From Bolinopsis microptera (Eukaryota; Ctenophora; Tentaculata; Lobata; Bolinopsidae): 64,000 nucleotides of DNA. Below, piece after piece: positions 5,515-63,611 of this stretch. The notes under the pieces are model-generated. The model worked only from the letters and a program-made list of their open reading frames with translations, had not been told where the DNA came from and made no database searches. The stretch lies in the NCBI RefSeq assembly GCF_026151205.1, contig NC_087077.1:4278001-4342000 (forward strand). The letters are read 5' to 3'. Every line of letters starts with the position of its first letter. Positions within the stretch are counted from its first letter, which is position 1. The position numbers were made by a program, and so were the translations under genes.

Positions 5515-7911
5515 ACTAAAGGAGGAGTTACAGGAAGGAGGAGTTACAGGAAGTTAACTGGTCTCAGCTTCGTGACTCATGCTCCTTTGAGGAGTTTCCT
5601 GCTCTTTTTACGGAGACCCTGTTCCAGATTTGCTGTTCGTGTGTTCCTCAGAAATCGGTGCCCTCTGGACGTCCTAAGCACAGCAACGCGTTGAGACGGA
5701 AATGCAACCGGCAAAAAGCACGACTCCAAGCATTAATTGACAAGAATGCTTCAGAAGACCAGATCAAGGCAGTCAGGAATAAAGTTGCACTCTTACAGTA
5801 CGACATCATGACTGCACATACCAAGAAACTGGATGAGAAGGAGAACAGAGCCATCGAGAAGATTAAAAGTAATCCGAAGTTCTTCTATAGTTATGCCCGA
5901 TCCCTCTCAACTATCAAATCCAGTATTAACATGCTATTTGATGCAAACCAGGAGATCACTACTGACACAAAGCAGATGGCGGACTTACTTCAGGAGCAGT
6001 TCAGCTCCGTGTTCAGTGATCCAAGCTCTCCTGATATCAAGGACCCAGATTTCCCGTTACCTATGATCGAACATCCGCAAACTCTTGAAGATTTTTGCAT
6101 CATGGATGACGATATCATATCTGCAATTGGGAATATTCCTCCTAACTCTGCTAGCGGACCTGATGGAATACCTGCTATCCTCTTAAAGAGCTGTGCAAAA
6201 GAGATGTGCGAGCCGATACGGCTCATCTGGAGTGAATCCTTTGAGCGTGGTGAAGTACCTAAGTTCTACAAAGATACCTACATCACTCCTCTATACAAAA
6301 AGGGTGATCGGGCGAGAGCTGTCAACTACCGGCCGGTGGCGCTCACATCTCACGTTATAAAAGTGTACGAACGCATACTGCGTGGCAAGATGGTTAGCTT
6401 CATAGAGAAGAACGGATTACTCTGTGATAATCAACATGGCTTTCGATCTGGGCGGAGCTGTCTCACCCAACTGCTCAGTCACGTTGATGACATTGTTCAA
6501 GGATTGGTGAAAAACGCTGATACTGACGCCATATACCTTGACTTTGCGAAAGCATTTGATAAAGTGGATCACCGACTGCTTATTAAGAAACTTAGAAGAA
6601 TGGGAATTCACGAAAAGGTGGTGTCGTGGATTGAATCCTTCTTAAGTGACCGCACACAGTGTGTTGTGTTGGACGGGATGTCATCACTTGCTGCAGCAAT
6701 CATAAGCGGAGTGCCACAGGGTACAGTTTTGGGCCCGCTGCTTTTCATTTTGTTCATTAATGACATGAAGCTGTGCATCACAGGATGTGTCATTAGATTC
6801 TTTGCTGACGATACACGGATTTTGAGGCACATCTATACACTTGATGATGCAAGTATACTGCAAAATGATCTCAACTCTGTCATTGACTGGGCAAGATGCA
6901 ATAACATGTCATTGCATGAGGATAAATTTGAGATACTCGTGCACAAACACTGTCCCCGAAACAGCTTGCAAGACCTCCCGTTTGCCATCCTGACGCAAAC
7001 TTATCAAGTTTCGCATGGTAACATAATGTACCCTACGGATGCAGTCAAAGACCTGGGGGTTTTGATCTCGGCGGACTTGTCTTGGAGCTCACATGTTACT
7101 ATGATAGCAGATCGTGCCCGTAAAGTTGCCTCTTGGGTTCTGAGCGCTTTTAGATCGAGAAACAAGATCACTATGCTGACCCTCTACAAGTCATTAGTCA
7201 GAAGCCATCTCGAGTACTGTTGTCCCCTCTGGAATTCAACTAAGCAAGCTGATATCGCTGAGCTAGAGGGAGTACAACGTACATTTACGTCCAAAATACA
7301 TGGTGTGCAACATCTGAACTATTGGCAGAGACTAAAGGCCTTAAAATTGATGTCACTTCAACGGAGGAGAGAACGTTACACTATCATTCATATGTGGAAG
7401 ATCCTACACAAGAAGTGTCCTAATGATGTCAACGTTCAGTTTACAGATACACTCCGTTATGGCCAGAAAGCAGTAGTCCCTAGCTTGTCAACGTCCAGTA
7501 GCCAAAGGAATCAATCGATCTTTGACAGCTCATTTGTAGTGATGGGGCCTCGATTGTGGAACATCATTCCCGCAAACCTGCACCTTATCGAGGACCCCCT
7601 ACGTTTCAAGTCATTGTTGACGGAGTTTGTTACATCTATTCCGGACGAACCTCCTGTTACTGGATATTGTTGCCAGAACGGGAATTCGTTATTGAACTGG
7701 AGCGCAGAAAAGACAGCAACTTCGCTGCACGGGTGGTCAGCCGTTCTGATGACCCGATAGAGGATCTATGAAGCAACCCCAAGTAACCCAAGTAAGTAAC
7801 GAGACTATGATTTGTTGAAGAAGAGAAAGTGGCAATATATATAATAATAAAGCCTAAAGGCAAGTAAAGTCAATGACTTTACTTGCCTTTAGGCTTTATT
7901 ATATATATATA
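5515..7911 (+). mobile_element. 5'-truncated CR1/jockey-type LINE with reverse transcriptase
   Basis: A 700-codon open frame (5658-7760, opening at GTG) encodes a non-LTR retrotransposon reverse transcriptase, which copies element RNA into DNA at a nicked target. Visible motifs are SGPDGIPAILLK near residue 165, YLDFAKAFDKVDH near 293, GVPQGTVLGPLLF near 350 and FADDT near 381. The C-terminal thumb region has HLEYCCPLWNS and a YWQRLKALKLMSLQRRRER block, typical of the CR1/jockey group. The endonuclease and ORF1 are missing. The frame continues upstream without a stop to about 5530, where a 16-bp tandem duplication (AGGAGGAGTTACAGGA twice) breaks it. So this is a dead, 5'-truncated copy with an intact RT core. 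The last 30 or so residues do not resemble the family and may be out of frame. Confidence 0.9.
7836..7911. repeat. Near-perfect palindrome at the LINE 3' end
   Basis: Arms of about 37 bases meet at 7873 with a one-base spacer. The inner 27 bases of each arm, including AAGCCTAAAGGCAAGTAAAG, are perfectly complementary, and the outer part runs into TA repeats. It lies about 75 bases after the LINE stop codon. It may be the element's own tail hairpin or an inverted duplication of the tail made at insertion. CR1-type LINEs usually end in a short direct repeat instead. Confidence 0.85.
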
Positions 7912-13317: not shown

Positions 13318-14074
13318 CCGTTTTACTTACATTCTGCAACTTAGCAACTGTTTTCTCATTATTCTAGACATAATTAGTTTCACTAACTCACTAAAACCAA
13401 TTTATAAAAGTACAACAAGGAATGTTGTCTTTACAGTTTAGCTAAAACTCGGTTTACCTGTAAAATTAAAACATCCGAGACGTACGTTTTTCTTGAACAC
13501 TGTACGTTTAATACACGTGTATTGCTTATCATCGTTATAGCCTCAAGTAGTTATCACTCTTTATCGTACTCTACAATGTTTTACAAAGCCTGTATCTTGA
13601 CTCAATACAGTCATTTTAGCTGATTACTGTAATTCAAAACGTCAGATTCCATACCTGCAAGACCGAGAATGCTTTATTTCGTGATTCAACGCTCTTCCTT
13701 TCTGAAAGAAACTATTCCAAAAATAGACAGTTTATTAGAATTGTGAGTTAATTAAGTGCTCCCAACATGACCCTAAACCACGTGACAGCATGTAACAATA
13801 GCACCACTGATCAACCTGATTAGATTGTCTTATAATACCAAGCTGTGTGAGTTGGGGGAGAGCTTTAAATATAATTCTCTGTCCAATTGAACGAGTGGAC
13901 GTGTTCTATTGTTCTCTAAGTTGCTCTTTACTGTACTTTGCTATTACTCTATTACCAGCTTCCATTCACTCGTCCCTGTTCTATTGTTCTCTAAGTTGCT
14001 CTTAGCTTTACTTTACTTTGCTGTTCTTTCTGCTTTCGTGAGCATGTACATTATTCACTTCAAATCTCATTAAA
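13318..14074. other. Leader region of the Penelope-type element
   Basis: No gene was found. A direct repeat containing TTCTATTGTTCTCTAAGT occurs at about 13902-13928 and again at 13977-14003, just before the reverse transcriptase ATG. It may be part of that element's leader or pseudo-LTR; I could not define the element's ends. Confidence 0.4.
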
Positions 14075-16633
14075 ATGCTTTACTTCTCAAAATCTTATTT
14101 TTATTCTAAAGTATCCATAAGTCCGATTAATAATTCAAACAAAAAAAGATATAAAGTCCACCAGCCTTCAGACCTACGCATCACACCCCTACAAACGGTT
14201 CTTACATCAGATCCTAATCCTAACTCCAAGAAAAAGTCTCTGACTGCTGCACTTAAGTCTGTTGAAGACAGCCTTATGCTGTCCTTAAACACTCTATATC
14301 CCTATGGACTAAACGATCGCCTGGAGAAGCCTTACTACCTGGATGCAGAGAACGAATTTCTGGATGGAGCATGTATCTACAAGCTCTTCCCCCCTCGCCC
14401 TTCGTCCCGAACATCTCGAGGCTCGAAAAATTCCACAACCTCACCCCCTCCCAACCCTAACAACTCTAACCCTAACATTACACTTTCCTATATTGTGAAA
14501 CTTTTTAAAGAGGGTAATCTTCGAGCATGTCGTGCTTTAATCTGTAATCTTAAAAAGCATCAAGTTATAGGCCTTGGTAGCTTTACTTCTAATAATATTG
14601 GCAATGCTACTACTGATATTAAAGTTTGTTATTTAATTGTGATTGATTTATGTAACCATTTTAAAACTCGCTCTATCTCATTTTTAGATTTTAAGAAACA
14701 TAATTTTAAAGTTAATAAGAAACCAGTTAATAAATATTCAGAATTTGTGCCTATTAACTTTGTATCTAAAGAGTTGGAATATTTTGGATTAAATTGTATA
14801 TTAAATGATTCTGACGCTATGAAAGTATTTCCGTTTAAGGATCTCAGTAAGAAATTCAGTAATCCTCAGTTTAGATTCTCGACCTGTTTTAAATATGAGA
14901 AGTCAATCCGTGCTGATGTTACCAATTATAAGGAACATGTTTTAAATAATGAGCCTATCTCTAATGTTAATTGTTTTTGTAGTCATTACAGTGATTTCAT
15001 CAACCCGAGTGTCGGGCATGTTATCACTGGGAACGTAGATATTGTTAAGAATAATAAACTTAGAAAATTATTTAAGAAAGGTTACACTTTTATTGAACCA
15101 GTTTACAAAAATAAGTTTGCTATTTTTAGGAGTGTTAAATCAGACTTACATAGATATATTAAAAGTCTGGCAACTAAGTACAGTGTCAGCACTAAATTAT
15201 TTGATGGTTGGCGAGCCATAGTTTTAGATACTCTTAAACCCAAGATTTTTTCCTCTAAGATATTTTGTAAGCGGAATCAGACTGTTATTTCCTCGGAGTT
15301 TGAGGACCTTAATGTCCTAAAAGAACATTTTATTATGACTAGCATAGACAAAGCGAGTAATAATGTTTCTTTTGTCTGCAAGAAGTACTATTTAGATAAT
15401 TTATTGCATGAACTTTCCTCCACTAGTACTTATCAAGTTTCCACAGATTCTGAAGAGGATATTGTAAGAAAGCATGTGCAATTTTGCCAGAAGTTTAAGA
15501 TTCCGGTGAATGATCTTTCGGTACCATTTATGCACATGTTACCGAAATTCCATAAACCGACCTTGGATTTCAGGTACATTGCAGCTGGGGTTAAATCTTC
15601 TACTAAAGTTCTTTCTAAAATTCTGAGTGGGGTATTTAAACTGCTTGGTACTACTTTAAAATACCTAGATAATTTTAATTTTAAGTTCTTAAACGCTTCT
15701 GGTTATTGGATTGTCGACAATAAAGACAAAGTGACATCCAACCTTAATTATCTTAATAATGCCTGCTCAGCTAAGTCAGTGTATTCGTTTGATTTTAAGA
15801 AACTGTACACCAACCTTCCCCATGATAAACTTATTGAGAAGTTATCATCTTTAATTAAATTATGTTTTGAGGAAAAGAAACTTGACTTTATCAATATCAA
15901 CGACCAGTTTAAAGCTAGATGGTCGGGAGTTAATAAGACTAAGTGGTCTTTTACATGTAGTGACCTGATAGATATGTTTAAATTCTTAATGGATAATATT
16001 TATGTTAAGTTTCGAGGTGTGATCTACAGACAGGTAATTGGTATCCCAATGGGATGTGATTGTGCTTCCCAGGTCGCAGACCTTTTTCTATACTGGTACG
16101 AGCATAATTACATCACATTGCAAGTTAAAAACAAGAACCCTGTGGTTCACACTTTGAAACACGCCAGTCGATACATTGACGATTTAACCACCCCCAATAT
16201 CAACAATAAGACTGTCGATATTATTTGCAATGATATTTACCCCGCAGAGTTGAAGATTATACTTACAAACTCTTGCAATTTATCTACGACTTTTCTTGAT
16301 TTAGACATTAATATTTTGAACAATCGTTTCTACACTAAATTATATGACAAACGACGTGACTTTAGTTTTAAAGTCGTTACTTTTCCTAACCTTCGCTCCA
16401 ACGTACCTGTTAAACCTTCGTATGGAGTATTTGTAGGTGAATTATATAGGATATGCAAATCTTCCTCAGTAGTTACTGAATTTATTCATGATGTTAAATT
16501 ATTAATTGATAAACTGATTACCCAGAATTTTGAACGGAAAATCTTACATAGATATCTTAAATTATTTATTAATAGTCAGCCAGCGTGTATCCTCAGACAC
16601 TGGCATATTTTCACAGTTAATGACTTCATGTAA
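14075..16633 (+). CDS. Penelope-type reverse transcriptase, intact ORF without endonuclease
   Basis: A single uninterrupted 852-codon frame from ATG encodes a reverse transcriptase of the Penelope-like type, the enzyme by which such retroelements copy themselves into chromosomes. Visible motifs are PKFHKPTLDFRYIAAG (about residue 497), FDFKKLYTNLPHDKL (about 571), IGIPMGCDCASQVADLFL (about 654) with the downstream acidic pair in RYIDDL (699-704), then FLDLDI, LYDKRRDFSF and YGVFVGELYRIC. The N-terminal half is lysine/asparagine-rich and unassigned. No GIY-YIG endonuclease follows the RT; the protein ends soon after LHRYLKLFI. That matches endonuclease-lacking members, or a product whose endonuclease has been lost. 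Codon use is strongly AT-biased. No terminal repeats were identified. The intact frame suggests recent insertion or selection. Confidence 0.85.
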   Translation: MLYFSKSYFYSKVSISPINNSNKKRYKVHQPSDLRITPLQTVLTSDPNPNSKKKSLTAALKSVEDSLMLSLNTLYPYGLNDRLEKPYYLDAENEFLDGACIYKLFPPRPSSRTSRGSKNSTTSPPPNPNNSNPNITLSYIVKLFKEGNLRACRALICNLKKHQVIGLGSFTSNNIGNATTDIKVCYLIVIDLCNHFKTRSISFLDFKKHNFKVNKKPVNKYSEFVPINFVSKELEYFGLNCILNDSDAMKVFPFKDLSKKFSNPQFRFSTCFKYEKSIRADVTNYKEHVLNNEPISNVNCFCSHYSDFINPSVGHVITGNVDIVKNNKLRKLFKKGYTFIEPVYKNKFAIFRSVKSDLHRYIKSLATKYSVSTKLFDGWRAIVLDTLKPKIFSSKIFCKRNQTVISSEFEDLNVLKEHFIMTSIDKASNNVSFVCKKYYLDNLLHELSSTSTYQVSTDSEEDIVRKHVQFCQKFKIPVNDLSVPFMHMLPKFHKPTLDFRYIAAGVKSSTKVLSKILSGVFKLLGTTLKYLDNFNFKFLNASGYWIVDNKDKVTSNLNYLNNACSAKSVYSFDFKKLYTNLPHDKLIEKLSSLIKLCFEEKKLDFININDQFKARWSGVNKTKWSFTCSDLIDMFKFLMDNIYVKFRGVIYRQVIGIPMGCDCASQVADLFLYWYEHNYITLQVKNKNPVVHTLKHASRYIDDLTTPNINNKTVDIICNDIYPAELKIILTNSCNLSTTFLDLDINILNNRFYTKLYDKRRDFSFKVVTFPNLRSNVPVKPSYGVFVGELYRICKSSSVVTEFIHDVKLLIDKLITQNFERKILHRYLKLFINSQPACILRHWHIFTVNDFM

Positions 16634-20361: not shown

Positions 20362-23300
20362 ATGGTAGAGGGAAAGAGAAGATGTCACAGTACATCAGAA
20401 GCGCCGTTACTGATCAAAGAACTGGACAAGCTGGACTCCTGGGACGATCCTTTCTGTTACGGAGACGAAGACAGCTCTTCAGAAGCTGTTTATCTGCTAC
20501 CCCAACGTAAGTAAGGACTGGTAAGTACCGGGAACTTGTTAGTACTGTGGAACTGGTAAGTACTGTAAGTACTGGGGTACTGGTAAGTTCTGGGGAACTG
20601 GTAAGTACTGGGGAACTGGTAAGTATACTGGGGAACTGATAAGTACTGGGGAACTGGTAAGTATACTGGAGAACTGGTAAGTACTGGGGAACTGGTAAGT
20701 ACTGGGGAACTGGTAAGTTCTGGGGAACTGGTAAGTATACTGGGGAACTGGTAAGTACTGGGGAACTGGTAAGTACTGGGGAACTGGTAAGTACTGGGGA
20801 ACTGTTAAGTTTTATACTATGCCAGGAAACAAATCGAATATTAATTGTTTTTATGTTTTTGACTTGTTACAGAAAAAGAATAGAAGGTATATCGTTATTA
20901 TTCCTTCTTATCGCAGGCCTTAGATTCCGTATCAACTGTAAGATTCAGTATCCACTGTAAAACGATTACTGTCATCAACGCGTTATCTCTCATCCCAAAA
21001 TATTTGGGCAATTCACCACTATAGTCGAATGGTAATCACTGATTATAGAATTACTAAGTTGATAATTATTTACGTTTGCTAAACAGTAAACACTAAACAT
21101 GCAATGTGATGACTGACAGACAGTTCGGTTCGATTTGGTTTGGCAGAAAAAATCGTAATTGGGCTGTTCGGCAAAGTATTCTCGTGGCAGTATCCAAGAA
21201 GCCTGACCTTGTTTCTAGTCACTGATAATTGTAACTGTTTAAATGCGGTGCTCGTTTGTTCCCAATACTTACACTTTACTCTAGTAGCAGTACTAACCCT
21301 TGTGAATATATCAATATAAAGGAACAGTTTACCCCCACGGGGAACTACCTCAATGTCTATACTCTATACCAAGGACTGTCTTACAAGTTCCTGGGTCCAG
21401 TATTAGGGCATATTAGGGACTATAATAATTAACCAGCAAATACTATATATTTGTAGCGTTGTAATAACCAATAATAGGAACCATGTTGATCATTAGCTCA
21501 TTAGTCTTTGTGACGAAGGTCCAAATATATTCACAGAAATTATATTACAGAAATTGTTAGCATCTACCATCTACCAGACGTAAATGAGGATATTTTATAG
21601 GCACAATTAGGCGTAACTATTACTAAACCGCAAATATTTTACGATGATGTTAATCCTTGACCTTTGCTTTATATGACGGATATCATGTACGAGTTGTATG
21701 GCTCAATGATACTACATCAGTTCTAGCGAGCTCAATGTTCTGAAATCGAACTTGCGATTATATGCGACCTTGCAAGGTTGAAGCTACTATATGCAACCTT
21801 GCAAGGTTGAAGCTACTATATGCAACCTTGCAAGGTTGAAGCTACTATATGCAACCTTGCAAGGTTTAGGCTACTATATGCGACCTTGCAAGGTTGAAGC
21901 TACTATATGCGATTTGCAAGGTTGAAGTCACTGTATGCGACCTTGCAAGGTTGAAGCTACTATATGCGACTTGCAAGGTTGAAGCTACTATATGCGACCT
22001 TGCAAGGTTGAGCTACTATATGCGACATTGCAAGGTCCATTTGTTCTCCAATCCCACCTCTTTGAGTTTTGACTTTCCTTTTTTCCCTTCTTTATTGTTT
22101 TATTTACCAGCTAAGGTTGTTGTGACGTTCATTGTTCATTGTTCATTGACAGAAGAAGAAGGCAGCTGTCGAAGTGCCATTCCACTACACAATAGGAGGT
22201 CAGATAGTATGATGAAGTGTGACGTAAAAATAAAGAAGCAGTAGTAGCACTGTAGTACAGGTAGTTCAGTAGTAGTACAGGGGCACTGCAGAGTGCAGTG
22301 CCCCAAAAGGGGTTAAATCCTTCAGTTTATTTATACATATTATGATATCACGTTATATTAATATTTTATGTAAATTGGTCATTAAAACCACCGGTACCAT
22401 TCGTCAGGCACTTAACTCTGACAATGACAGTTGACACGCTCTCTGACAAGACTCAGTGGTTCTCAGCTCGCGCTTGTAGTTTGTAACCAGTCATATCATC
22501 TGTCTAGCTTACAGATCATATTAATTTCCACCTGCCATCCTGCGTGCCACACCTTGAGACTTATACACTTGTTGTAAAGATAATATCACATTGAACAGTG
22601 CTACTGATAAGTATTGTTGCAATCTGTAAACTTCTTGTATTCTTGTGGTCGGTCTGTGGGGCCGGCCGCTTTGTTGTTATCTGCTACAGAATAGAGCGGT
22701 ACTCTGTATAAGCGGTGCTCTGTATAAGGTGATATCTCTTATACTTATCACGGTTACATCTTGTAGTGGTCACACAAGATGTAACCGTGGTTCTGCGCAC
22801 GCCATATGTAACCGTGGTTCTGCGCACGCCATATGTAACCGTGGTTCTGCGCACGCAAGATGTAACCGTGGTTCTGCGCACGCAATATGTAACCGTGGTT
22901 CTGCGCACGCAATATGTAACCGTGGTTCTGCGCATGCAAGATGTAACCGTGGTTCTGCGCACGCAAGATGTAACCGTGGTTCTGCGCACGCAAGATGTAA
23001 CCGTGGTTCTGCGCACGCAATATGTAACCGTGGTTCTGCGCACGCAATATGTAACCGTGGTTCTGCGCACGCCATATGTAACCGTGGTTCTGCGCACGCA
23101 AGATGTAACCGTGGTTCTGCGCACGCAAGATGTAACCGTGGTTCTGCGCACGCAAGATGTAACCGTGGTTCTGCGCACGCAAGATGTAACCGTGGTTCTG
23201 CGCACGCAAGATGTAACCGTGGTTCTGCGCACGCAAGATGTAACCGTGGTTCTGCGCACGCAAGATGTAACCGTGGTTCTGCGCACGCAAGATTTAACCG

Positions 23301-49892: not shown

Positions 49893-50188
49893 TAAAACAA
49901 AGGGGAGTAAGAACCATTTGGAACCAATTAATTATTACTAGTACTACTTGCCGATTTATTGAATATTATAATTCTTTATGGTATTTGTATGATCGTATTT
50001 TTAATCGTATTTTTAATTGTAATATACACAATTGTGCGGTGATAGGAAATATAAAAATATTAATGAACAAATTTTCAAATCCTAATTTTGCACGGAATCG
50101 TTTAAATACTGAATTTGCAAAAATGTATAAACTTCAAGTTTCGAAACAAATTAATTTATTAAATTTTAAATCTTCAGTCAAATATTGG

Positions 50189-53100
50189 CTAAGATAAGCT
50201 CTCGATTGAGCAGCAAGGTGTTGAAAGATTAGAAACCAAAAGTTCCTTCTCAAAACCGAACTCTATGTCCTCATTAAGACCACTGTCGTTAATGAGTTTT
50301 TCAACATCACAAGATTTGTGCCTTAAACTGCGGCGTAGAGGTGACATTGTTGGGGAGGTGATGAAACTGAGGTCGGTTGGCAGGGGCCAGAGGCTGTTGT
50401 CATGGTTACTGTTGTCATGACAACAGAGGCTGTTATCAGCTAGAGGACTGCTGTTTTCAAAAGAAACCAGGTTTATCAGATCATCAGATATACCTGAAAT
50501 TGTAAATTAGATCTTCAATTTTCAATCAAATAGATAATACAATCTAACTAACTTATTCTTTAATGGAAACTTGGATCAACAGTTCTTTAACCTATCACTA
50601 TTAATGTAATCTTACTTTCGTCATCATCGAATTCCAAATCTAAATCGTTGTCCACTTTTATGTCCATCATAACAATCGGAGATGTAGTCAATTTGTTCAG
50701 GTCCATAGTTTGTTGAAGCTGCTCGTCCTGGTCAAAGCCGGCCTCCTCGTCACAATCCTTGTCAGCAGACATCTGAGTTTTAGTTAAACCTCCCCGAACA
50801 GCTTGCACAGCGATCTTCCAGAGAGTTTTAGCCCTGCCGTCTTTGTACTCTTTGGGATTCGTGGATAAGCTGCTCTTTGTTGGTGGAGTGATTTCGGCTG
50901 ATTTTCTACTGTCAGATTTCGAGTTTCTCTTTTCCATATCGAAAGAGCCCGCAGGAGTGGTTGCACTCTCGGAAGAAACGTATGAGTTTGTAATATTTCT
51001 ATCCTCATCCTCTATCTTAATCTTAGGGTTTCCTCGCTCTGCAAACTGTTTCCTCCACCTGCTTGCCTTATCTCCTCTGTTTCCAGGACCATTAACTTGA
51101 TCCAGTTCCTTCAGGTCCAGTTGTGCCGGTTTTCCTCCAGTAGTATCGCATATCTCCCTCTCATGTGAAGGTTTTCTAAACCACCCCCATCCACTTCCAG
51201 GACCACTCTTTGGTTCAGTCTCCTCCTCACCCCACGAGTAGGTGTTGTGGTAACTCTTCAGGGTAGACAAGAGCCAAGGGTTGCTCAGCTCCACGCTGCT
51301 GTCTCCTTTCCAAACTATACACCTATCAGTAACCGCGGGAGCGGAGATCGGCTCTGAACCATTCGAGAGTTTTAGGTTGTCGTGGTTACTGTCTCTTTCT
51401 TCGTCATCACCCTCACTTTCATCATTAATATGGTGTAAGTTCCAGTAAGGGTAGTCGTGATCCTGACCTACAACTCCTTCTCTCCAGTTACTCTCAAAGA
51501 TAGCTGAGGGCTCTACCACTGAAAACTCTATCACTGCATCATCACTTTCTTTGTTCATATAAACATCTTTGTCTTTGCAGAACGTTTTTGACATCCAGCT
51601 CCTTTTCTTGTTGGGAGCAACTTCATGATCCACAAATATGAACCACTCTGTTGTTACTCCCCTGAGAGTTAAAAAAGTAAGGGTTTTATCAGAGTCTGGT
51701 GCTTCACTTGTGTCCGTCTCTTTTGCGGACTCTTCAGTCTTAAGTGCCTCCTCAGACTCGTCGTTTTTACTACTACATAGGATACTACCAGAGGAGTGCC
51801 GACTCAGTTCTGATATAAACGGTTCCAATAATGTACTACTTTTGCGTTTTCTTTCCTTCCAGCGGAGCACGCTATCCAAGGTTCCTTTTATCTCGCCTGA
51901 CTTACGCCGGGCTAATTTCCTGCTGAACGGGTTGAGTGGAGAAGGTACTCGCCCTGAAAACAAATGCCATTACAGTGATATTAGGTGGTAGTCGCCCTGG
52001 AAGCAAATGCCATTACAGTGATACTAGGTGGTAGTCGCCCTGAAAGCAAATGCGATTACAGTGATACTAGGTGGTAGTCGCTCTGAAAGCAAATGCCATT
52101 ACAGTGATACTAGGTGGTAGTCGCCCTGAAAGCAAATGCGATTACAGTGATATTAGGTGGTAGTCGCCCTGAAAGCAAATGCGATTACAGTGATACTAGG
52201 TGGTAGTCGCCCTGAAAGCGAATGCCATTACAGTGATATTAGGTGGTAGTCGCCCTGAAAGCAAATGCCATTACAGTGATATTAGGTGGTAGTCGCCCTG
52301 AAAGCAAATGCGATTACAGTGATATTAGGTGGTAGTCGCCCTGAAAGCAAATGCCATTACAGTGATATTAGGTGGTAGTCGCCCTGGAAGCAAATGCCAT
52401 TACAGTGATACTAGGTGGTAGTCGCCCTGAAAGCAAATGCCATTACAGTGATACTAGGTGGTAGTCGCCCTGAAAGCAAATGCCATTACAGTGATACTAG
52501 GTGGTAGTCGCCCTGAAAGCAAATGCGATTACAGTGATATTAGGTGGTAGTCGCCCTGAAAGCAAATGCGATTACAGTGATATTAGGTGGTAGTCGCCCT
52601 GAAAGCAAATGCGATTACAGTGATATTAGGTGGTAGTCGCCCTGAAAGCAAATGCGATTACAGTGATACTAGGTGGTAGTCGCCCTGAAAGCAAATGCGA
52701 TTACAGTGATACTAGGTGGTAGTCGCCCTGAAAGCAAATGCGATTACAGTGATACTAGGTGGTAGTCGCCCTGAAAGCAAATGCCATTACAGTGATATTA
52801 GGTGGTAGTCGCCCTGAAAGCAAATGCGATTACAGTGATATTAGGTGGTAGTCGCCCTGAAAGCAAATGCGATTACAGTGATATTAGGTGGTAGTCGCCC
52901 TGAAAGCAAATGCCATTACAGTGATATTAGGTGGTAGTCGCCCTGAAAGCAAATGCGATTACAGTGATATTAGGTGGTAGTCGCCCTGAAAGCAAATGCG
53001 ATTACAGTGATATTAGGTGGTAGTCGCCCTGAAAGCAAATGCGATTACAGTGATACTAGGTGGTAGTCGCCCTGAAAGCAAATGCGATTACAGTGATACT

Positions 53101-56100
53101 AGGTGGTAGTCGCCCTGAAAGCAAATGCGATTACAGTGATACTAGGTGGTAGTCGCCCTGAAAGCAAATGCGATTACAGTGATATTAGGTGGTAGTCGCC
53201 CTGAAAGCAAATGCGATTACAGTGATACTAGGTGGTAGTCGCCCTGAAAGCAAATGCGATTACAGTGATACTAGGTGGTAGTCGCCCTGAAAGCGAATGC
53301 CATTACAGTGATATTAGGTGGTAGTCGCCCTGAAAGCAAATGCGATTACAGTGATATTAGGTGGTAGTCGCCCTGAAAGCGAATGCGATTACAGTGATAC
53401 TAGGTGGTAGTCGCCCTGAAAGCGAATGCCATTACAGTGATATTAGGTGGTAGTCGCCCTGAAAGCAAATGCGATTACAGTGATATTAGGTGGTAGTCGC
53501 CCTGAAAGCAAATGCCATTACAGTGATATTAGGTGGTAGTCGCCCTGGAAGCAAATGCCATTACAGTGATACTAGGTGGTAGTCGCCCTGAAAGCAAATG
53601 CCATTACAGTGATACTAGGTGGTAGTCGCCCTGAAAGCAAATGCCATTACAGTGATACTAGGTGGTAGTCGCCCTGAAAGCAAATGCCATTACAGTGATA
53701 TTAGGTGGTAGTCGCACTGAAAGCAAATGCGATTACAGTGATACTAGGTGGTAGTCGCCCTGAGAGCAAATGCGATTACAGTGATACTAGGTGGTAGTCG
53801 CCCTGAAAGCAAATGCCATTACAGTGATACTAGGTGGTAGTCGCCCTGAAAGCAAATGCCATTACAGTGATATTAGGTGGTAGTCGCCCTGAAAGCAAAT
53901 GCGATTACAGTGATATTAGGTGGTAGTCGCCCTGAAAGCAAATGCCATTACAGTGATATTAGGTGGTAGTCGCCCTGAAAGCAAATGCGATTACAGTGAT
54001 ACTAGGTGGTAGTCGCCCTGAGAGCAAATGCCATCACAGTGATATTAGGTGGTAGTCGCCCTGGAAGCAAATGCGATTACAGTGATACTAGGTGGTAGTC
54101 GCCCTGAAAGCAAATGCGATTACAGTGATACTAGGTGGTAGTCGCCCTGAGAGCAAATGCGATTACAGTGATATTAGGTGGTAGTCGCCCTGGAAGCAAA
54201 TGCGATTACAGTGATACTAGGTGGTAGTCGCCCTGAAAGCAAATGCGATTACAGTGATATTAGGTGGTAGTCGCCCTGGAAGCAAATGCGATTACAGTGA
54301 TACTAGGTGGTAGTCGCCCTGAGAGCAAATGCGATTACAGTGATATTAGGTGGTAGTCGCCCTGAGAGCAAATGCGATTACAGTGATACTAGGTGGTAGT
54401 CGCCCTGAGAGCAAATGCGATTACAGTGATACTAGGTGGTAGTCGCCCTGAGAGCAAATGCGATTACAGTGATATTAGGTGGTAGTCGCCCTGAAGCAAA
54501 TGCGATTACAGTGATACTAGGTGGTAGTCGCCCTGAAAGCAAATGCGATTACAGTGATATTAGGTGGTAGTCGCCCTGAAAGCAAATGCGATTACAGTGA
54601 TACTAGGTGGTAGTCGCCCTGAAAGCAAATGCGATTACAGTGATATTAGGTGGTAGTCGCCCTGAAAGCAAATGCGATTACAGTGATACTAGGTGGTAGT
54701 CGCCCTGAAAGCAAATGCCATTACAGTGATACTAGGTGGTAGTCGCCTTGAAAGCAAATGCGATTACAGTGATATTAGGTGGTAGTCGCCCTGAAAGCAA
54801 ATGCCATTACAGTGATACTAGGTGGTAGTCGCCCTGAAAGCAAATGCCATTACAGTGATACTAGGTGGTAGTCGCCCTGAAAGCAAATGCCATTACAGTG
54901 ATATTAGGTGGTAGTCGCCCTGAAAGCAAATGCGATTACAGTGATACTAGGTGGTAGTCGCCCTGAAAGCAAATGCGATTACAGTGATATTAGGTGGTAG
55001 TCGCCCTGAAAGCAAATGCCATTACAGTGATACTAGGTGGTAGTCGCCCTGAAAGCAAATGCCATTACAGTGATACTAGGTGGTAGTCGCCTGAAAGCAA
55101 ATGCGATTACAGTGATATTAGGTGGTAGTCGCCCTGAAAGCAAATGCCATTACAGTGATACTAGGTGGTAGTCGCCCTGAAAGCAAATGCCATTACAGTG
55201 ATACTAGGTGGTAGTCGCCCTGAAAGCAAATGCCATTACAGTGATACTAGGTGGTAGTCGCCTTGAAAGCAAATGCGATTACAGTGATATTAGGTGGTAG
55301 TCGCCCTGAAAGCAAATGCCATTACAGTGATACTAGGTGGTAGTCGCCCTGAAAGCAAATGCGATTACAGTGATACTAGGTGGTAGTCGCCCTGAAAGCA
55401 AATGCGATTACAGTGATACTAGGTGGTAGTCGCCCTGAAAGCAAATGCCATTACAGTGATACTAGGTGGTAGTCGCCTTGAAAGCAAATGCGATTACAGT
55501 GATACTAGGTGGTAGTCGCCCTGAAAGCAAATGCGATTACAGTGATACTAGGTGGTAGTCGCCCTGAAAGCAAATGCGATTACAGTGATACTAGGTGGTA
55601 GTCGCCCTGAAAGCAAATGCCATTACAGTGATACTAGGTGGTAGTCGCCTTGAAAGCAAATGCGATTACAGTGATATTAGGTGGTAGTCGCCCTGAAAGC
55701 AAATGCGATTACAGTGATACTAGGTGGTAGTCGCCCTGAAAGCAAATGCCATTACAGTGATACTAGGTGGTAGTCGCACTGAAAGCAAATGCGATTACAG
55801 TGATACTAGGTGGTAGTCGCCCTGAAAGCAAATGCGATTACAGTGATACTAGGTGGTAGTCGCCCTGAAAGCAAATGCGATTACAGTGATATTAGGTGGA
55901 AGTCGCCCTGAAAGCAAATGCGATTACAGTGATATTAGGTGGAAGTCGCCCTGAAAGCAAATGCAATTACAGTGATACTAGGTGGTAGTCGCCCTGAAAG
56001 CAAATGCAATTACAGTGATACTAGGTGGTAGTCGCCCTGAAAGCAAATGCCATTACAGTGATATTAGGTGGAAGTCGCCCTGAAAGCAAATGCGATTACA

Positions 56101-59100
56101 GTGATACTAGGTGGTAGTCGCCCTGAAAGCAAATGCCATTACAGTGATATTAGGTGGAAGTCGCCCTGAAAGCAAATGCGATTACAGTGATATTAGGTGG
56201 TAGTCGCCCTGAAAGCAAATGCCATTACAGTGATACTAGGTGGTAGTCGCCCTGAAAGCAAATGCAATTACAGTGATACTAGGTGGTAGTCGCCCTGAAA
56301 GCAAATGCGATTACAGTGATACTAGGTGGTAGTCGCCCTAAAAGCAAATGCCATTACAGTGATATTAGGTGGTAGTCGCCCTGAAAGCAAATGCGATTAC
56401 AGTGATACTAGGTGGTAGTCGCCCTAAAAGCAAATGCCATTACAGTGATACTAGGTGGTAGTCGCCCTGAAAGCAAATGCGATTACAGTGATACTAGGTG
56501 GTAGTCGCCCTGAAAGCAAATGCCATTACAGTGATACTAGGTGGTAGTCGCCCTGAAAGCAAATGCCATTACAGTGATACTAGGTGGTAGTCGCCCTGAA
56601 AGCAAATGCAATTACAGTGATACTAGGTGGTAGTCGCCCTGAAAGCAAATGCCATTACAGTGATACTAGGTGGTAGTCGCCCTGAAAGCAAATGCGATTA
56701 CAGTGATACTAGGTGGTAGTCGCCCTGAAAGCAAATGCGATTACAGTGATACTAGGTGGTAGTCGCCCTGAAAGCAAATGCCATTACAGTGATACTAGGT
56801 GGTAGTCGCCCTGAAAGCAAATGCCATTACAGTGATACTAGGTGGTAGTCGCCCTGAAAGCAAATGCCATTACAGTGATATTAGGTGGTAGTTGCCCTGA
56901 AAGCAAATGCGATTACAGTGATATTAGGTGGTAGTCGCCCTAAAAGCAAATGCGATTACAGTGATACTAGGTGGTAGTCGCCCTGAAAGCAAATGCGATT
57001 ACAGTGATACTAGGTGGTAGTCGCCCTGAAAGCAAATGCGATTACAGTGATACTAGGTGGTAGTCGCCCTGAAAGCAAATGCAATTACAGTGATACTAGG
57101 TGGTAGTCGCCCTAAAAGCAAATGCGATTACAGTGATACTAGGTGGTAGTCGCCCTGAAAGCAAATGCGATTACAGTGATACTAGGTGGTAGTCGCCCTG
57201 AAAGCAAATGCAATTACAGTGATACTAGGTGGTAGTCGCCCTGAAAGCAAATGCGATTACAGTGATACTAGGTGGTAGTCGCCCTGAAAGCAAATGCGAT
57301 TACAGTGATACTAGGTGGTAGTCGCCTTGAAAGCAAATGCGATTACAGTGATACTAGGTGGTAGTCGCCCTGAAAGCAAATGCGATTACAGTGATACTAG
57401 GTGGTAGTCGCCTTGAAAGCAAATGCAATTACAGTGATACTAGGTGGTAGTCGCCCTAAAAGCAAATGCGATTACAGTGATACTAGGTGGTAGTCGCCCT
57501 GAAAGCAAATGCGATTACAGTGTTACTAGGTGGTAGTCGCCTTGAAAGCAAATGCGATTACAGTGATACTAGGTGGTAGTCGCCCTAAAAGCAAATGCCA
57601 TTACAGTGATACTAGGTGGTAGTCGCCCTAAAAGCAAATGCCATTACAGTGATATTAGGTGGTAGTTGCCCTGAAAGCAAATGCGATTACAGTGATACTA
57701 GGTGGTAGTCGCCCTGAAAGCAAATGCCATTACAGTGATACTATGTGGTAGTCGCCCTGAAAGCAAATGCAATTACAGTGATACTAGGTGGTAGTTGCCC
57801 TGAAAGCAAATGCAATTACAGTGATACTAGGTGGTAGTCGCCCTGAAAGCAAATGCAATTACAGTGATACTAGGTGGTAGTCGCCCTGAAAGCAAATGCA
57901 ATTACAGTGATACTAGGTGGTAGTTGCCCTGAAAGCAAATGCAATTACAGTGATATTAGGTGGTAGTCGCCCTGAAAGCAAATGCGATTACAGTGATACT
58001 AGGTGGTAGTCGCCCTGAAAGCAAATGCGATTACAGTGATACTAGGTGGTAGTCGCCCTGAAAGCAAATGCCATTACAGTGATACTAGGTGGTAGTCGCC
58101 CTGAAAGCAAATGCAATTACAGTGATACTAGGTGGTAGTCGCCCTGAAAGCAAATGCCATTACAGTGATATTAGGTGGTAGTCGCCCTGAAAGCAAATGC
58201 AATTACAGTGATACTAGGTGGTAGTCGCCCTGAAAGCAAATGCAATTACAGTGATACTAGGTGGTAGTCGCCCTGAAAGCAAATGCAATTACAGTGATAC
58301 TAGGTGGTAGTCGCCCTGAAAGCAAATGCGATTACAGTGATACTAGGTGGTAGTCGCCCTGAAAGCAAATGCGATTACAGTGATATTAGGTGGTAGTCGC
58401 CCTGAAAGCAAATGCCATTACAGTGATACTAGGTGGTAGTCGCCCTGAAAGCAAATGCGATTACAGTGATACTAGGTGGTAGTCGCCCTGAAAGCAAATG
58501 CGATTACAGTGATACTAGGTGGTAGTCGCCCTGAAAGCAAATGCGATTACAGTGATACTAGGTGGTAGTCGCCCTGAAAGCAAATGCCATTACAGTGATA
58601 TTAGGTGGTAGTCGCCCTGAAAGCAAATGCCATCACAGTGATACTAGGTGGTAGTCGCCCTGAAAGCAAATGCCATTACAGTGATACTAGGTGGTAGTCG
58701 CACTGAAAGCAAATGCCATTACAGTGATACCGTCGTAGCGGTTTAACTTCATACTACAACTTGGCGCCGGACATCATCTTTTGATATTAATGTCCAAATT
58801 ATCTTTCTTTCAGTTATACGCGTCGGCTCTGTTTAGTGGGCAAATATTATGTTGTAAGAAATTGAAACAAAACAAATATTAGTAATTAAATTCGAATATG
58901 ATGAACATTGAACAAATCATTGTTCAAGTTTAAACAAAGTAAGATTACAGACCGGCCACTTGCAGATCATTTTCTCATTATACTTTTTAAAAGTTGAAAC
59001 TGCAATGTTCTTGCCAAGTCTGTGGCTGGAAAAATCAACTTACAAAATCGGTATCAGGCTTCTCTAAGTCTAATACGTCTTGATTAAATGCAGTATGTAG

Positions 59101-60235
59101 ATACAAAAGAACACAGCATGAAAATAGTCAACAGAGCATATTTTCATGAATGATATTGCTATTCCCAAAATGCTATCGTCAAATATAGTGTCAAATATGA
59201 AATAGCGCTATATGGCGCTCGATAGCGCTAGATATCGAATTTCAACTATCATTATCAGTAAAGAACCAGCAAATTTTCATGAATGATATTGCGATTCCAA
59301 AAATGCTGGATAACGAAAAAAAAAGCTTTGTCTCTTTGATGATATATAAGGCTACAATTCGCTATCCCCGAAACTTTCTGATTGGTGGAGTGATGAGTAT
59401 TCGGCTTGGTGACGAAGTAAAGGGTTGTGCTATTTGTTTTTGCTCATATTGAGCCGCTGAACTAGGTCTGGGGGAACCATGTTCCACTTGGAAAGAAGTC
59501 CTCCCCGTTTGGCTGGCTTTTTGCCCACATCTGAAACGAACGGGTTACACTTTCAGATCACCCGTAGCAGTAGCAACTTTACTTAGCTTATTCAGTTTTG
59601 AACTGCGTGGAACTTTATCAGCGAGTGTTGCCTAAAAGTGGAACTTTATCAGCGAGTGTTGCCTAAAAGGCCTCCGATAGCTTACGTGAAGTTTACATTT
59701 CTATGAACGCTTAAAAACATATCACATATAGCTACGAAATATATTTTATCAAGATATGTGTTAGTGCTCATGTCTTATCAGTTTAGGGTGCCTTCCGAGT
59801 TTGCATTTTATTTTTACTGAGTACTGACCATGCATGAATCTCGATCAGATAAAATTGTATAAGTTTAGTAACTGGTCGTTATCGCTGAGCAAATGTAGCT
59901 AACATAGCAGAAAAAAATTATTCTTTGAAAAAGAAACAGCCCGTTAGTTTTTATCACTTACCAGTATTTTCAGATTTAGACCAGAATTTCGGGTGTTCTG
60001 ATAGGAAAGAGCAATGTTAATAACGTAATACAAATAATCACCTTAGTATTGCTGTACAACTACTACAATCATAGCAGGTAGTATTGTTGTACAACTACTA
60101 CAATCATAGCAATTATTATCAATATTATCAATATGATAATATCTCTCCTACAAATAATCTCTCCTAGACACTGGACCTTCTTCAGCTTCAACAGCTCTAG
60201 CGTTGATACACAAGAGATCACTGACATTGGCAGTA
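50189..60235 (-). CDS. 3' part of a gene for a long acidic protein of unknown family
   Basis: The two 3' exons are clear: 50616-51953 (1338 bases) and terminal 50189-50493 (stop TAG). They join in phase and encode the last 548 aa. The large exon is rich in Ser, Lys, Asp and Glu and looks mostly disordered. One more ordered block contains TLRGVTTEWFIFVDHEVAP and EFSVVEPSAIFESNWREG; later come SWGEEETEPKSG and KTLWKIAVQAVRGGL. I do not recognise the family. Upstream candidate exons on the same strand are 60177-60235, 59962-59997 and one beginning at 59530. They join each other in phase (EEHPKFWSKSENTDVGKKPAK) but I found no donor that links the last to 51953 in phase, so an exon may be missing or they may belong elsewhere. 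Between them lies the 43-bp array. The 5' end was not found. Confidence 0.6.
51952..58731 (-). repeat. 43-bp minisatellite, about 157 copies, each with a 3' splice site
   Basis: The plus-strand unit is GCCCTGAAAGCAAATGCSAT followed by TACAGTGATAYTAGGTGGTAGTC, with a three-way C/G/A site and a T/C site. Read on the coding (-) strand, each unit has a CTAATAT or CTAGTAT branch-like motif, then GCATTTGCTTTCAG|GGCGACTACC. The real exon boundary at 51953 reads GCATTTGTTTTCAG|GGCGAGTACC, so the unit is a copy of the authentic acceptor plus about ten exon bases. A few units have lost one base. There are no unique spacers, so it is not a CRISPR. Confidence 0.96.
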
Positions 60236-61941: not shown

Positions 61942-63611
61942 TCATGAGAAGCAAATAGATTCCTCACTTTTAGCGGTCTTGCTGGCGTAGCTGAGGGCTA
62001 GTTTGTGATTGGTTAGGTCTTTGTAGTCGAAGAAGGCCTCGAAGTCAGGGTCCAGCTCTGCTAGGGATAATATCTCTGCGAACTCCTCCTCTGTTAAAGG
62101 GTCGTCTCCTATTCTTGTTAATGCCCTGAGGGTATTAGTATTACAATCATTTCTTGACAGTTTATCATTTAGAAATGACAACTGCAAAGACATTTGTATG
62201 AAAACTACGATCGGCAGTAAAATTGTTGATAAAAATGTAAGCGGCTAAAAGTAAAGGCACAACGGTCGTGTCTGCCAGGGTCTTCGTAAACCAAATCTTG
62301 ACCTATAAGGTTAGCTTTCGTTTAGGGCATAATATTTACTGGATACCGTTATACCAACTGGTATGCAATTCTTGACTCAAAAAAGCTATTCAAGTCAAGT
62401 GAAATGTATACCTGTGAAGGTCTTTAGTCTGCAATTTCCCATCATCGTCCCTATCAAATATCTCAAACGCATTAGTGATATCCGCCAACGTCTCCTCCTC
62501 GTTCCTTCCCACCACTAACTTAAACACCTCCTGGAACTTCATGTTCTGGTTGTTGGTTGTCATGACAGCGGCCTGTGAGAGGATATTCTGAGTTTCCCGA
62601 TCTTCTGAGGAGTATCCTAGTTTGGATAAGATATCTGTGATGTCATCCTGGTTAACTCCCTCCTTCTCCGGGTCCCCCACTGCATCGTACGCTCTCTGTA
62701 CTGCTGTCCGGAATGTGTTCATGAACCCGGACCCGCTTTTGTCGGTAGATTCATCGTCATAATCGTCCCTGTACTCGTCTGTGTCTATCGAACCTCGACT
62801 GGAACATTTAGAAATCAACAACAAAAATCCATCCAGCAAATGACTGACCTAAGAGTTAGATATATAATTTAGGGTCTGAAGACATTCCCGTCTATATAAC
62901 TTCCGCCCCTGGGTTTGAGACTTGGAATAGCTCAAAGTACCCATCAGAAACAAATTTGGCTTGGGTAGAAATTTTGGCTATGGTGCAGTTTTGCGCACTT
63001 TACCACACCCTCTTTTAGCGCTTTCGCGACTTTAAAATCAAAATAACCCCGCTTCTAATTATAAGTAGAAGCTCAACTTGCCATTAAAATTTTTTAGAAT
63101 CATCACAATTAGGGGGGTACAGCATAATTTTAAAGTCACCAGACATCAGGTTGTTCAGTTATGTGACCACACCTTTTTTTGCTCTCGCAAGTCGTAATTT
63201 TTCACACTAAATACGAGATATCTCGGCTTCTGATTGAGCTAGGTGCTCATCTTGGGCATTAAAATGTCCAAAATCATCATATTAAGTAGGGTATAGCACA
63301 ATTTCAAAATCCTCAGACGTCAGGTTGTTGAGTTTTTAGGCCAAAAGTCCTTTCAATAAATCAACAACCCGATTGTCTGAGGACTTCGAAATTATACTCT
63401 ACCCTACACAATGTGGGTCCATTTAATAACCGTTTAAATAAAAGATAAAGTATTACCTGTGACTCCTGTGTCTGGCATCAGCGGGGATGATCTCCTCCAA
63501 CGTAAGGTTCTCCCCTCGCCCCGACTTTGACTTGAGATTATCAACAGCATCTTGCAGAGCTGCTCTCCTGGCCTGCAGAGGCGTTCTCCTTATACTTTTA
63601 TACGCAAACAT
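61942..63611 (-). CDS. EF-hand calcium-binding protein of the calmodulin superfamily, three exons, 241 aa
   Basis: Exons 63457-63611, 62412-62798 and 61942-62125 join with matching phases and end at TGA. The N-terminal 65 residues are basic, then acidic with an Asp/Tyr/Glu-rich stretch (TDEYRDDYDDES). From about residue 75 there are four helix-loop-helix-like units. Only the third has a full calcium loop, DRDDDGKLQTKD at about 167-178, with ligands at positions 1, 3, 5 and 12 and glycine at 6. The first (GDPEKEGVNQDD) and the others are degenerate. This pattern fits regulatory EF-hand proteins such as myosin or axonemal light-chain relatives; I cannot choose among them. The ATG at 63611 follows a good promoter-like region, but a weak AAAAG acceptor at that point leaves open a further 5' exon. 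Confidence 0.82.

Follow-up and report, generated by a model that had tools for sequence, protein, structure and literature searches.

We analysed a 64,000-nucleotide stretch of the genome of the ctenophore Bolinopsis microptera (assembly GCF_026151205.1, NC_087077.1, positions 4,278,001 to 4,342,000), hereafter called the window and numbered from its first base. On its minus strand lies a calmodulin-like gene, all exon borders of which are predicted from the sequence, and one intron of this gene appears to be filled largely by a single minisatellite at 51944-58730, whose 43-bp unit repeats the 3' splice site of the exon that follows. Tandem Repeats Finder described this array with a period of 43, 157.9 copies, 96% matches and a score of 12356. 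Segmentation at AG gave 158 units, namely 155 of 43 bp, two of 42 bp and one degenerate 41-bp unit at the edge. Both counts agree with the approximately 157 copies reported by a first-pass annotation of the window.

The array and its host gene

The consensus of the array on the minus strand is GGCGACTACCACCTAGTATCACTGTAATCGCATTTGCTTTCAG (a slash in other sequences below marks a splice junction). The terminal unit finishes TTTGTTTTCAG at 51954, and the repeat continues for 10 bases into the exon at 50616-51953, thus spanning the predicted intron-exon boundary. The first-pass annotation had described the unit as the exon's own acceptor region, with the array lying on the intron side and reaching about ten bases into the exon, and this was borne out. 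It had placed the array at 51952-58731; the array itself is real, but its exon-side edge is to be set at about 51944, since the identity extends over the first ten bases of the exon (51944-51953). Two differences are private to the terminal copy, C37T and the exonic C6G, as expected for an edge copy that has not been homogenised.

An AG was in place in 151 of the 158 units (150 times at the unit end and once, after loss of a G, as a CAG across the border), and seven units read CAA instead of CAG. The commonest unit end was TTTCAG (129/158). The branch-like motifs noted in the first-pass annotation were present, CTAAT in 51 units and CTAGT in 105 of the 158, but since most units carry CTAGT rather than CTAAT, the branch-point A of the motif is missing from two thirds of all units. 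We searched the whole 264.65-Mb assembly (232 contigs) for the unit, allowing at most three mismatches. This yielded 155 matches; the window likewise contained 155, all within this one array and with 0 expected by chance, which led us to reject a dispersed satellite or a transposon as its origin. Among 61 arrays in 212 kb it was the longest (6.8 kb, the next being 3.9 kb), the window having been sampled because of it.

The commonest changes between units were at position 29 (C, G or T) and position 16 (G or A). Identity between neighbouring units was 96.7%, barely different from the 95.9% found at a lag of 80 units. Rare variants were clustered, for instance those altering position 39, which lie between 53.76 and 54.49 kb, and this clustering fits local tandem turnover, as would be expected. 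With the terminal copy excluded, the acceptor positions (33-43) were not less variable than the others (5/11 versus 8/32; Fisher p = 0.26). Of the five variable acceptor positions, four were pyrimidine swaps and one was the change of AG to AA (7 units). The comparison gave no sign of selection keeping the array acceptors and lent no support to the tuning or sponge functions that had been proposed for them.

The exon predicted to be served by the terminal copy has 1338 bases, as in the first-pass annotation; it lies in a frame of 460 codons and is in phase 1 on both sides. It ends AAA/GTAAGA at 50616. The phase-1 joins (61968 to 51953 and 50616 to 50493) give a frame of 767 codons with one stop, at its end, and the exon fits the calmodulin-like gene upstream, in phase. 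The codon score, trained on the other exons, the rest of the 51953 exon and two receptor genes, was 0.227 in frame for the first 118 codons of the exon. The two remaining sense frames scored -0.077 and -0.251, and no antisense frame exceeded 0.074. One of the six 20-codon windows in this part was near zero (-0.01). The array, used as control, scored below zero in each of the three frames. Upstream, the frame is closed by a TAA within an array unit (51972-51970), so that the coding exon must start below it; the first in-frame ATG lies 118 codons into the exon. For the protein encoded by this exon, no Pfam family scored above cut-off (best DFF-C, 0.021) and the PDB gave no significant match (best 0.018), and no second copy of the exon was found in the assembly, where it occupies one locus. 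The Pfam EF-hand matches of the calmodulin-like gene also stayed below cut-off. An AATAAA at 50160 lies just behind the predicted last exon. Upstream of the array, the candidate stop exon and the candidate cassette exon fit in phase, making a short isoform possible.

Table 1. Features of the calmodulin-like gene and its array in the window, with a further acceptor-junction array elsewhere in the assembly
Feature	Position	Strand	Basis or remark
Predicted last exon, stop ...CSIESLS*	50189..50493	-	phase-compatible
1338-nt exon, orphan acidic/Ser-rich protein	50616..51953	-	460-codon frame, phase, coding score
Ten exonic bases GGCGAGTACC common to exon and repeat unit	51944..51953	-	one mismatch (GGCGACTACC)
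43-bp minisatellite	51944..58730	-	per unit about 33 intron-end bases and 10 exon-start bases
Terminal-copy acceptor TTTGTTTTCAG	51954..51964	-	sole opener of a long frame among 154 tested
Degenerate outer edge unit of array	58703..58743	-	segmentation
Candidate alternative exon with stop (short isoform)	59430..59530	-	phase-compatible
Candidate 36-nt cassette exon	59962..59997	-	phase kept
Predicted upstream exon, calmodulin-like gene	61968..62125	-	ends phase 1, CTAAAA/GTGAGG
Predicted upstream exon, EF-hand-like	62412..62798	-	PDB calmodulin, E 1.8e-6
Predicted upstream exon	63457..63572	-	shares open frame with 62412-62798 and 61968-62125
L050 acceptor-junction array	G000:C5:12421520-12423020	-	seven 32-bp units ending CTATTTGCAG/GGTGGATGA, short terminal-looking exon after; frame only

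Predicted products of the array acceptors and explanations of the array

The upstream exons were joined computationally to 154 of the 158 acceptors, the four in front of G4A units not being matched. A long frame followed from one of these acceptors, that at 51953, and an early stop lay behind the other 153, in keeping with the earlier proposal that only the last copy opens a long exon. The predicted tails were of 19 residues in 142 cases, of 8 residues in eight and of 31-33 residues in three. A typical 19-residue tail is RRLPPSITVIAFAFRATTT; 111 of the 142 read RRLPP(S/N)ITV(I/M)AFAFRATTT and the remainder differed slightly. Nearly all copies would therefore give one and the same truncated protein, and the choice among them would hardly matter. 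Mutually exclusive exons of the Dscam type were rejected, as the 43-bp unit is not a multiple of three, all but one of the 154 acceptors run into an early stop and the unit, judged by eye, holds no strong donor. Recursive (ratchet) splice sites, for which AG/GT is expected, were rejected as well, the consensus being CAG/GGC; the first exonic base of the 155 full units was G in 151, T in three and A in one, and the second was G in all 155.

We favour the reading, with a probability of roughly 0.7, that the array is a giant counterpart of the 'mirages' of amphioxus, which are minisatellites spanning intron-exon boundaries, those on the acceptor side included (PMC3087553). Its origin would have been the duplication in tandem of a 43-bp segment covering the end of the intron and the start of the 51953 exon, and this repeat would then have expanded to about 158 copies inside the intron of this ctenophore gene. 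Productive mRNA would use the terminal copy, the sole copy adjoining the long exon, and use of any other copy would append a short tail and a stop, leaving the transcript truncated or degraded. The array would be mostly ballast, tolerated because the exon remains accessible through the terminal copy, and the yield of the long isoform may fall in proportion to the occasions on which upstream copies win. Array anatomy, uniqueness, the matching phase of the predicted exons, the premature stops and the occurrence of like arrays at homology-supported exons can be read directly in the DNA. Most likely the array works passively, with the terminal acceptor serving the exon and the remainder tolerated, possibly at a cost in truncated transcripts; regulation by the array is possible.

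Several points weigh against this reading. Use of the terminal acceptor is predicted from DNA sequence. For the 51953 exon no relative was found in the libraries searched, so that phase and coding score are the grounds on which its acceptor is placed, and a weaker acceptor-like site, ACCCGTTCAG/CAG, seen by eye, lies inside the exon in another phase. The upstream gene could have its end in the stop exon at 59430-59530, which would put the 51953 exon in another gene, and with arrays so frequent in this genome, one could overlap a junction simply by chance.

We considered the possibility that the calmodulin-like gene ends at its in-frame stop exon, 59430-59530, and that the 51953 exon belongs to a separate gene with the array at its start, the 5' exon of that gene lying beyond or within the repeat, or a spliced leader being joined at the terminal acceptor. 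Spliced-leader trans-splicing occurs in ctenophores. Yet the phase fits the upstream gene, which luck would provide one time in three, the codons ahead of the first in-frame ATG score as coding, and none of the poly(A) hexamers AATAAA, ATTAAA, AGTAAA, TATAAA and AATATA was found at 58731-59427. A separate gene is unlikely on these grounds, and a spliced-leader origin of the terminal acceptor was set aside. Chance overlap would mean that an unrelated intronic minisatellite happens to end at the exon and that its match to the acceptor is accidental. Although arrays are frequent (30 in the 140 kb sampled, covering 10.4 kb), this is very hard to reconcile with a terminal copy that crosses the junction with its acceptor inside and ten exonic bases, one of them mismatched, and with a unit found at no other locus of the assembly; we regard it as extremely improbable.

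Another possibility was that the array serves in regulation as a decoy or alternative last exon, which most transcripts would enter and which would act as a robust 'stop' exon turning off the long isoform. The uniformity of the 19-residue tails (142 of 154 acceptors) and the near equality in sequence of the array acceptors and the real one are what such a device would call for. However, no constraint was seen on the array acceptors, seven units read CAA, and amphioxus mirages are reported without disturbance of splicing (PMC3087553, PMC3902484), as suggested by reverse transcription-PCR (PMC3087553). A decoy function is improbable in our view, and we retain the expanded junction duplication as the best account of the locus.

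Splice-junction arrays elsewhere in the genome

Arrays at predicted splice junctions recur in this genome, on both the acceptor and the donor side. Acceptor-side arrays were found at loci L029, L030, L037 and L050, and donor-side arrays at L028, L054, L055, L059 and L060; L053 starts at the donor. Homology supports the exons of L030, L037 and L060, and weakly that of L055, the others being recognised by open frame only. At L030, a first exon (...CSVIAHEVAHQ) ends CAG/GTAACA and the 3' part of the following intron consists of ten TTTTCAG copies, whose nine spacings are 39, seven times 37, and 43. The second exon starts at the last copy, and the unit holds its first 20 bases, or 24 with one mismatch. 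When the two exons were joined, 82 residues matched 82 positions of Pfam Peptidase_M1 (5.3e-40), compared with 4.3e-16 for the second exon alone. At L037, the 45-bp unit contains the acceptor of a TSP_1 (thrombospondin-1) exon (Pfam 2.8e-15) together with 19 bases of that exon. In L060 the repeated site is the donor of a homeodomain exon (Pfam 2.7e-13), which ends there at position 45 of the model; the 35-bp unit includes 28 bases of the exon. At L055 it is the donor of a WD40-like exon that is repeated, and the Pfam matches of this exon (1e-4 and 0.0056) are below cut-off. The unit of L053 has no exonic bases, so that this array does not span the junction but starts at the donor. The start of the L021 array adjoins the donor of a CDK exon (PDB CDK2, E 1e-12; no Pfam match). 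The exon peptides of L028, L029, L050, L053, L054 and L059 had no match in Pfam; in the PDB, L054 had none and L059 only matches with E 0.23-0.51. Two of the eleven unit lengths of junction arrays (20, 23, 29, 32, 32, 35, 36, 37, 41, 43 and 45) are multiples of three.

In fourteen 10-kb regions with round coordinates on C1-C6 (period of at least 9, at least 3 copies), the 30 arrays made up 7.4% of the sequence. With arrays at this density, some splice junctions are bound to be covered, and a preference of arrays for splice junctions could not be shown. Genome-wide, the numbers of scanning windows with three copies of a motif were 915 for TTTTCAG versus 213 for the reversed motif, 14,961 versus 2,920 for GTAAGT, and 431 versus 0 for CAGGTAAGT; as long arrays are counted repeatedly, such counts overstate enrichment. 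Counted by distinct arrays among the matches listed (C1, C2 and C3 to 10.73 Mb), TTTTCAG gave 18 and GACTTTT seven, the two places of a C3 satellite at 10.52 and 10.73 Mb being counted once and two of the GACTTTT arrays being hardly periodic. DNA outside arrays contains 625 TTTCAG versus 322 GACTTT per Mb. For GTAAGT there were eight arrays versus two for TGAATG (plus strand, first 2.6 Mb of C1), and the motif occurred in 3 of the 61 arrays in 212 kb, with 1.3 expected, and was absent from the 40 top hexamers. After this counting by distinct arrays we do not claim that splice motifs are enriched in arrays genome-wide. Behind the last copy, the longest open frame had a median length of 13 amino acids in the seven GACTTTT controls and 35 in 17 TTTTCAG arrays (p = 0.075), but one control, L050, is itself an acceptor-junction array, so that the test fails to separate the groups.

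In the surveys that follow, 'exon-like' was judged by eye. Among 17 TTTTCAG arrays (the 18 without the C3 satellite), an exon-like frame started from the last copy in three (L029, L030 and L037). Other open frames, of 78 amino acids at L033, 55 at L042, 42 at L044 and about 40 at L032 and L039, were left uncounted, and the peptides of L032, L033, L039 and L042 had no Pfam match. Nine distinct CAGGTAAGT arrays were present among the 100 matches listed, of which L061 ends inside the array; an exon-like frame ended at the first donor copy in five of the other eight (L053, L054, L055, L059 and L060) and not in L056, L057 and L058. Among the eight GTAAGT arrays of C1 (L021-L028), L028 spans a donor as judged by its frame, L021 lies beside one, and six look antisense, intronic or unclear. 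From these surveys, junction arrays seem to be common in this genome.

Some further arrays were observed. In the window itself, on the plus strand at 20507-20810, 15 exact GTAAGT copies, mostly in 18-bp units, follow immediately on a possible short exon with its end at about 20506, and an acceptor-like TTGTTACAG lies near 20871; this is a candidate donor-side junction array. Directly beside the window and on the strand of the calmodulin-like gene, two arrays of L006 (G000:C6:4342001-4350000, minus, about 1469 to 1199 and 2800 to 1567) adjoin an exon-like stretch. This stretch ends GTAAGTGTTA, with the donor repeated in about 17 ten-base units, and a 56-bp array containing TTTCCAG or TTTTCAG, 22 copies long, lies just upstream of it. 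L057 (G000:C8:7267920-7268970) has, from about 905, 37-bp units reading TTATTTCAG/GTAAGTAG, that is, tandem copies resembling recursive splice sites. The C3 satellite, with 47-bp units beginning TTTTCAGGACAGCAATG, lies at G000:C3:10522198-10525882 and from 10725660, and accounts for most of the 100 TTTTCAG-array matches listed.

Unrelated to the arrays, long plus-strand frames at 5520-7760 and 14042-16633 of the window resemble non-LTR (non-long terminal repeat) and Penelope-like reverse transcriptases, as judged by eye from their translation. The glutamate-receptor family PF10613 has 32 matches in the assembly, including groups on C3 and C12; most lie in open frames of 340-990 amino acids, pointing to few introns. 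Of two paralogues compared with the PDB, L063 matched best the receptor ML032222a of Mnemiopsis (214 bits) and next the kainate-like receptor 4zdm of Pleurobrachia (190 bits), ahead of every other match listed, in agreement with a ctenophore host; no ctenophore receptor was among the 60 best matches of L062.

Known junction repeats and the meaning of the array

The first-pass annotation had regarded the array as a kind of system not previously described. Published cases precede it in amphioxus and in the human genes CBS and IFI6. Mirages are known in amphioxus Adh3, in the globin genes BflGb6 and BflGb9 (PMC3087553) and, as later additions, in the troponin C and PGBD5 genes (PMC3902484). That of BflGb6 has 6 and 3 copies on two haplotypes, and units range from 10 to 160 bp across genes (PMC3087553, PMC3902484). 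The array described here resembles them in having a boundary-spanning repeat, splice signals in many units and edge copies that escape homogenisation; mirages lie on the acceptor or the donor side, and in the Bolinopsis genome, too, both sides are affected. It differs from them in its 158 copies, its length of 6.8 kb and its ctenophore host.

The human CBS gene offers two comparisons. Its 31-bp variable number tandem repeat c.1444_1467+7(16_21) spans, by its numbering, an exon end and the start of an intron (PMC2630376), and therefore holds many splice-site copies; unlike the array at 51944-58730, it is on the donor side, has 16-21 copies and is polymorphic in people. The 68-bp duplication 844ins68 at the intron 7/exon 8 junction doubles a splice site, of which the distal one is strongly preferred (PMC2630376). 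These sites are named donors in PMC2630376, whereas a title cited there (Romano 2002) speaks of a 3' splice site. Here 158 copies stand against the two of 844ins68. The minisatellite of human IFI6 (6-16) has short units carrying donor sites. These units act as alternative splice sites (PMC4526556; cited title, Turri 1995). Transcript variants are documented for IFI6, and length instability and undisturbed splicing come from the amphioxus reports, whereas the Bolinopsis array is known from the DNA of an assembly.

Duplication of AG/GT proto-splice sites has been discussed as a route to intron gain (PMC3087553), and in human paralogues tandem repeats at exon-intron boundaries may form new introns (PMC2812944). 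The starting event is the same, but there a new intron arises, whereas here an existing one would have been enlarged. In the open-licence literature that we searched, no paper on splice-junction repeats in ctenophores was found. The array is therefore of a known kind, larger than the literature cases compared and in an animal group for which we found no precedent.

It is conceivable, though we think it doubtful, that two things hold jointly, namely that ctenophores carry a large, unrecorded population of junction minisatellites and that at this locus the proportion of long to truncated protein depends on array length. If so, about 150 near-identical acceptors would nearly always lead to one short stop tail, and the proportion would shift as the array expands or shrinks. 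The locus is a natural competition experiment between about 150 almost equal 3' splice sites with one productive site at the end, and would show directly if an acceptor is chosen by distance, by order or by the exon that follows it. Furthermore, the recurrence of such arrays in one genome makes the junction-duplication model of boundary shift and intron gain testable outside amphioxus.

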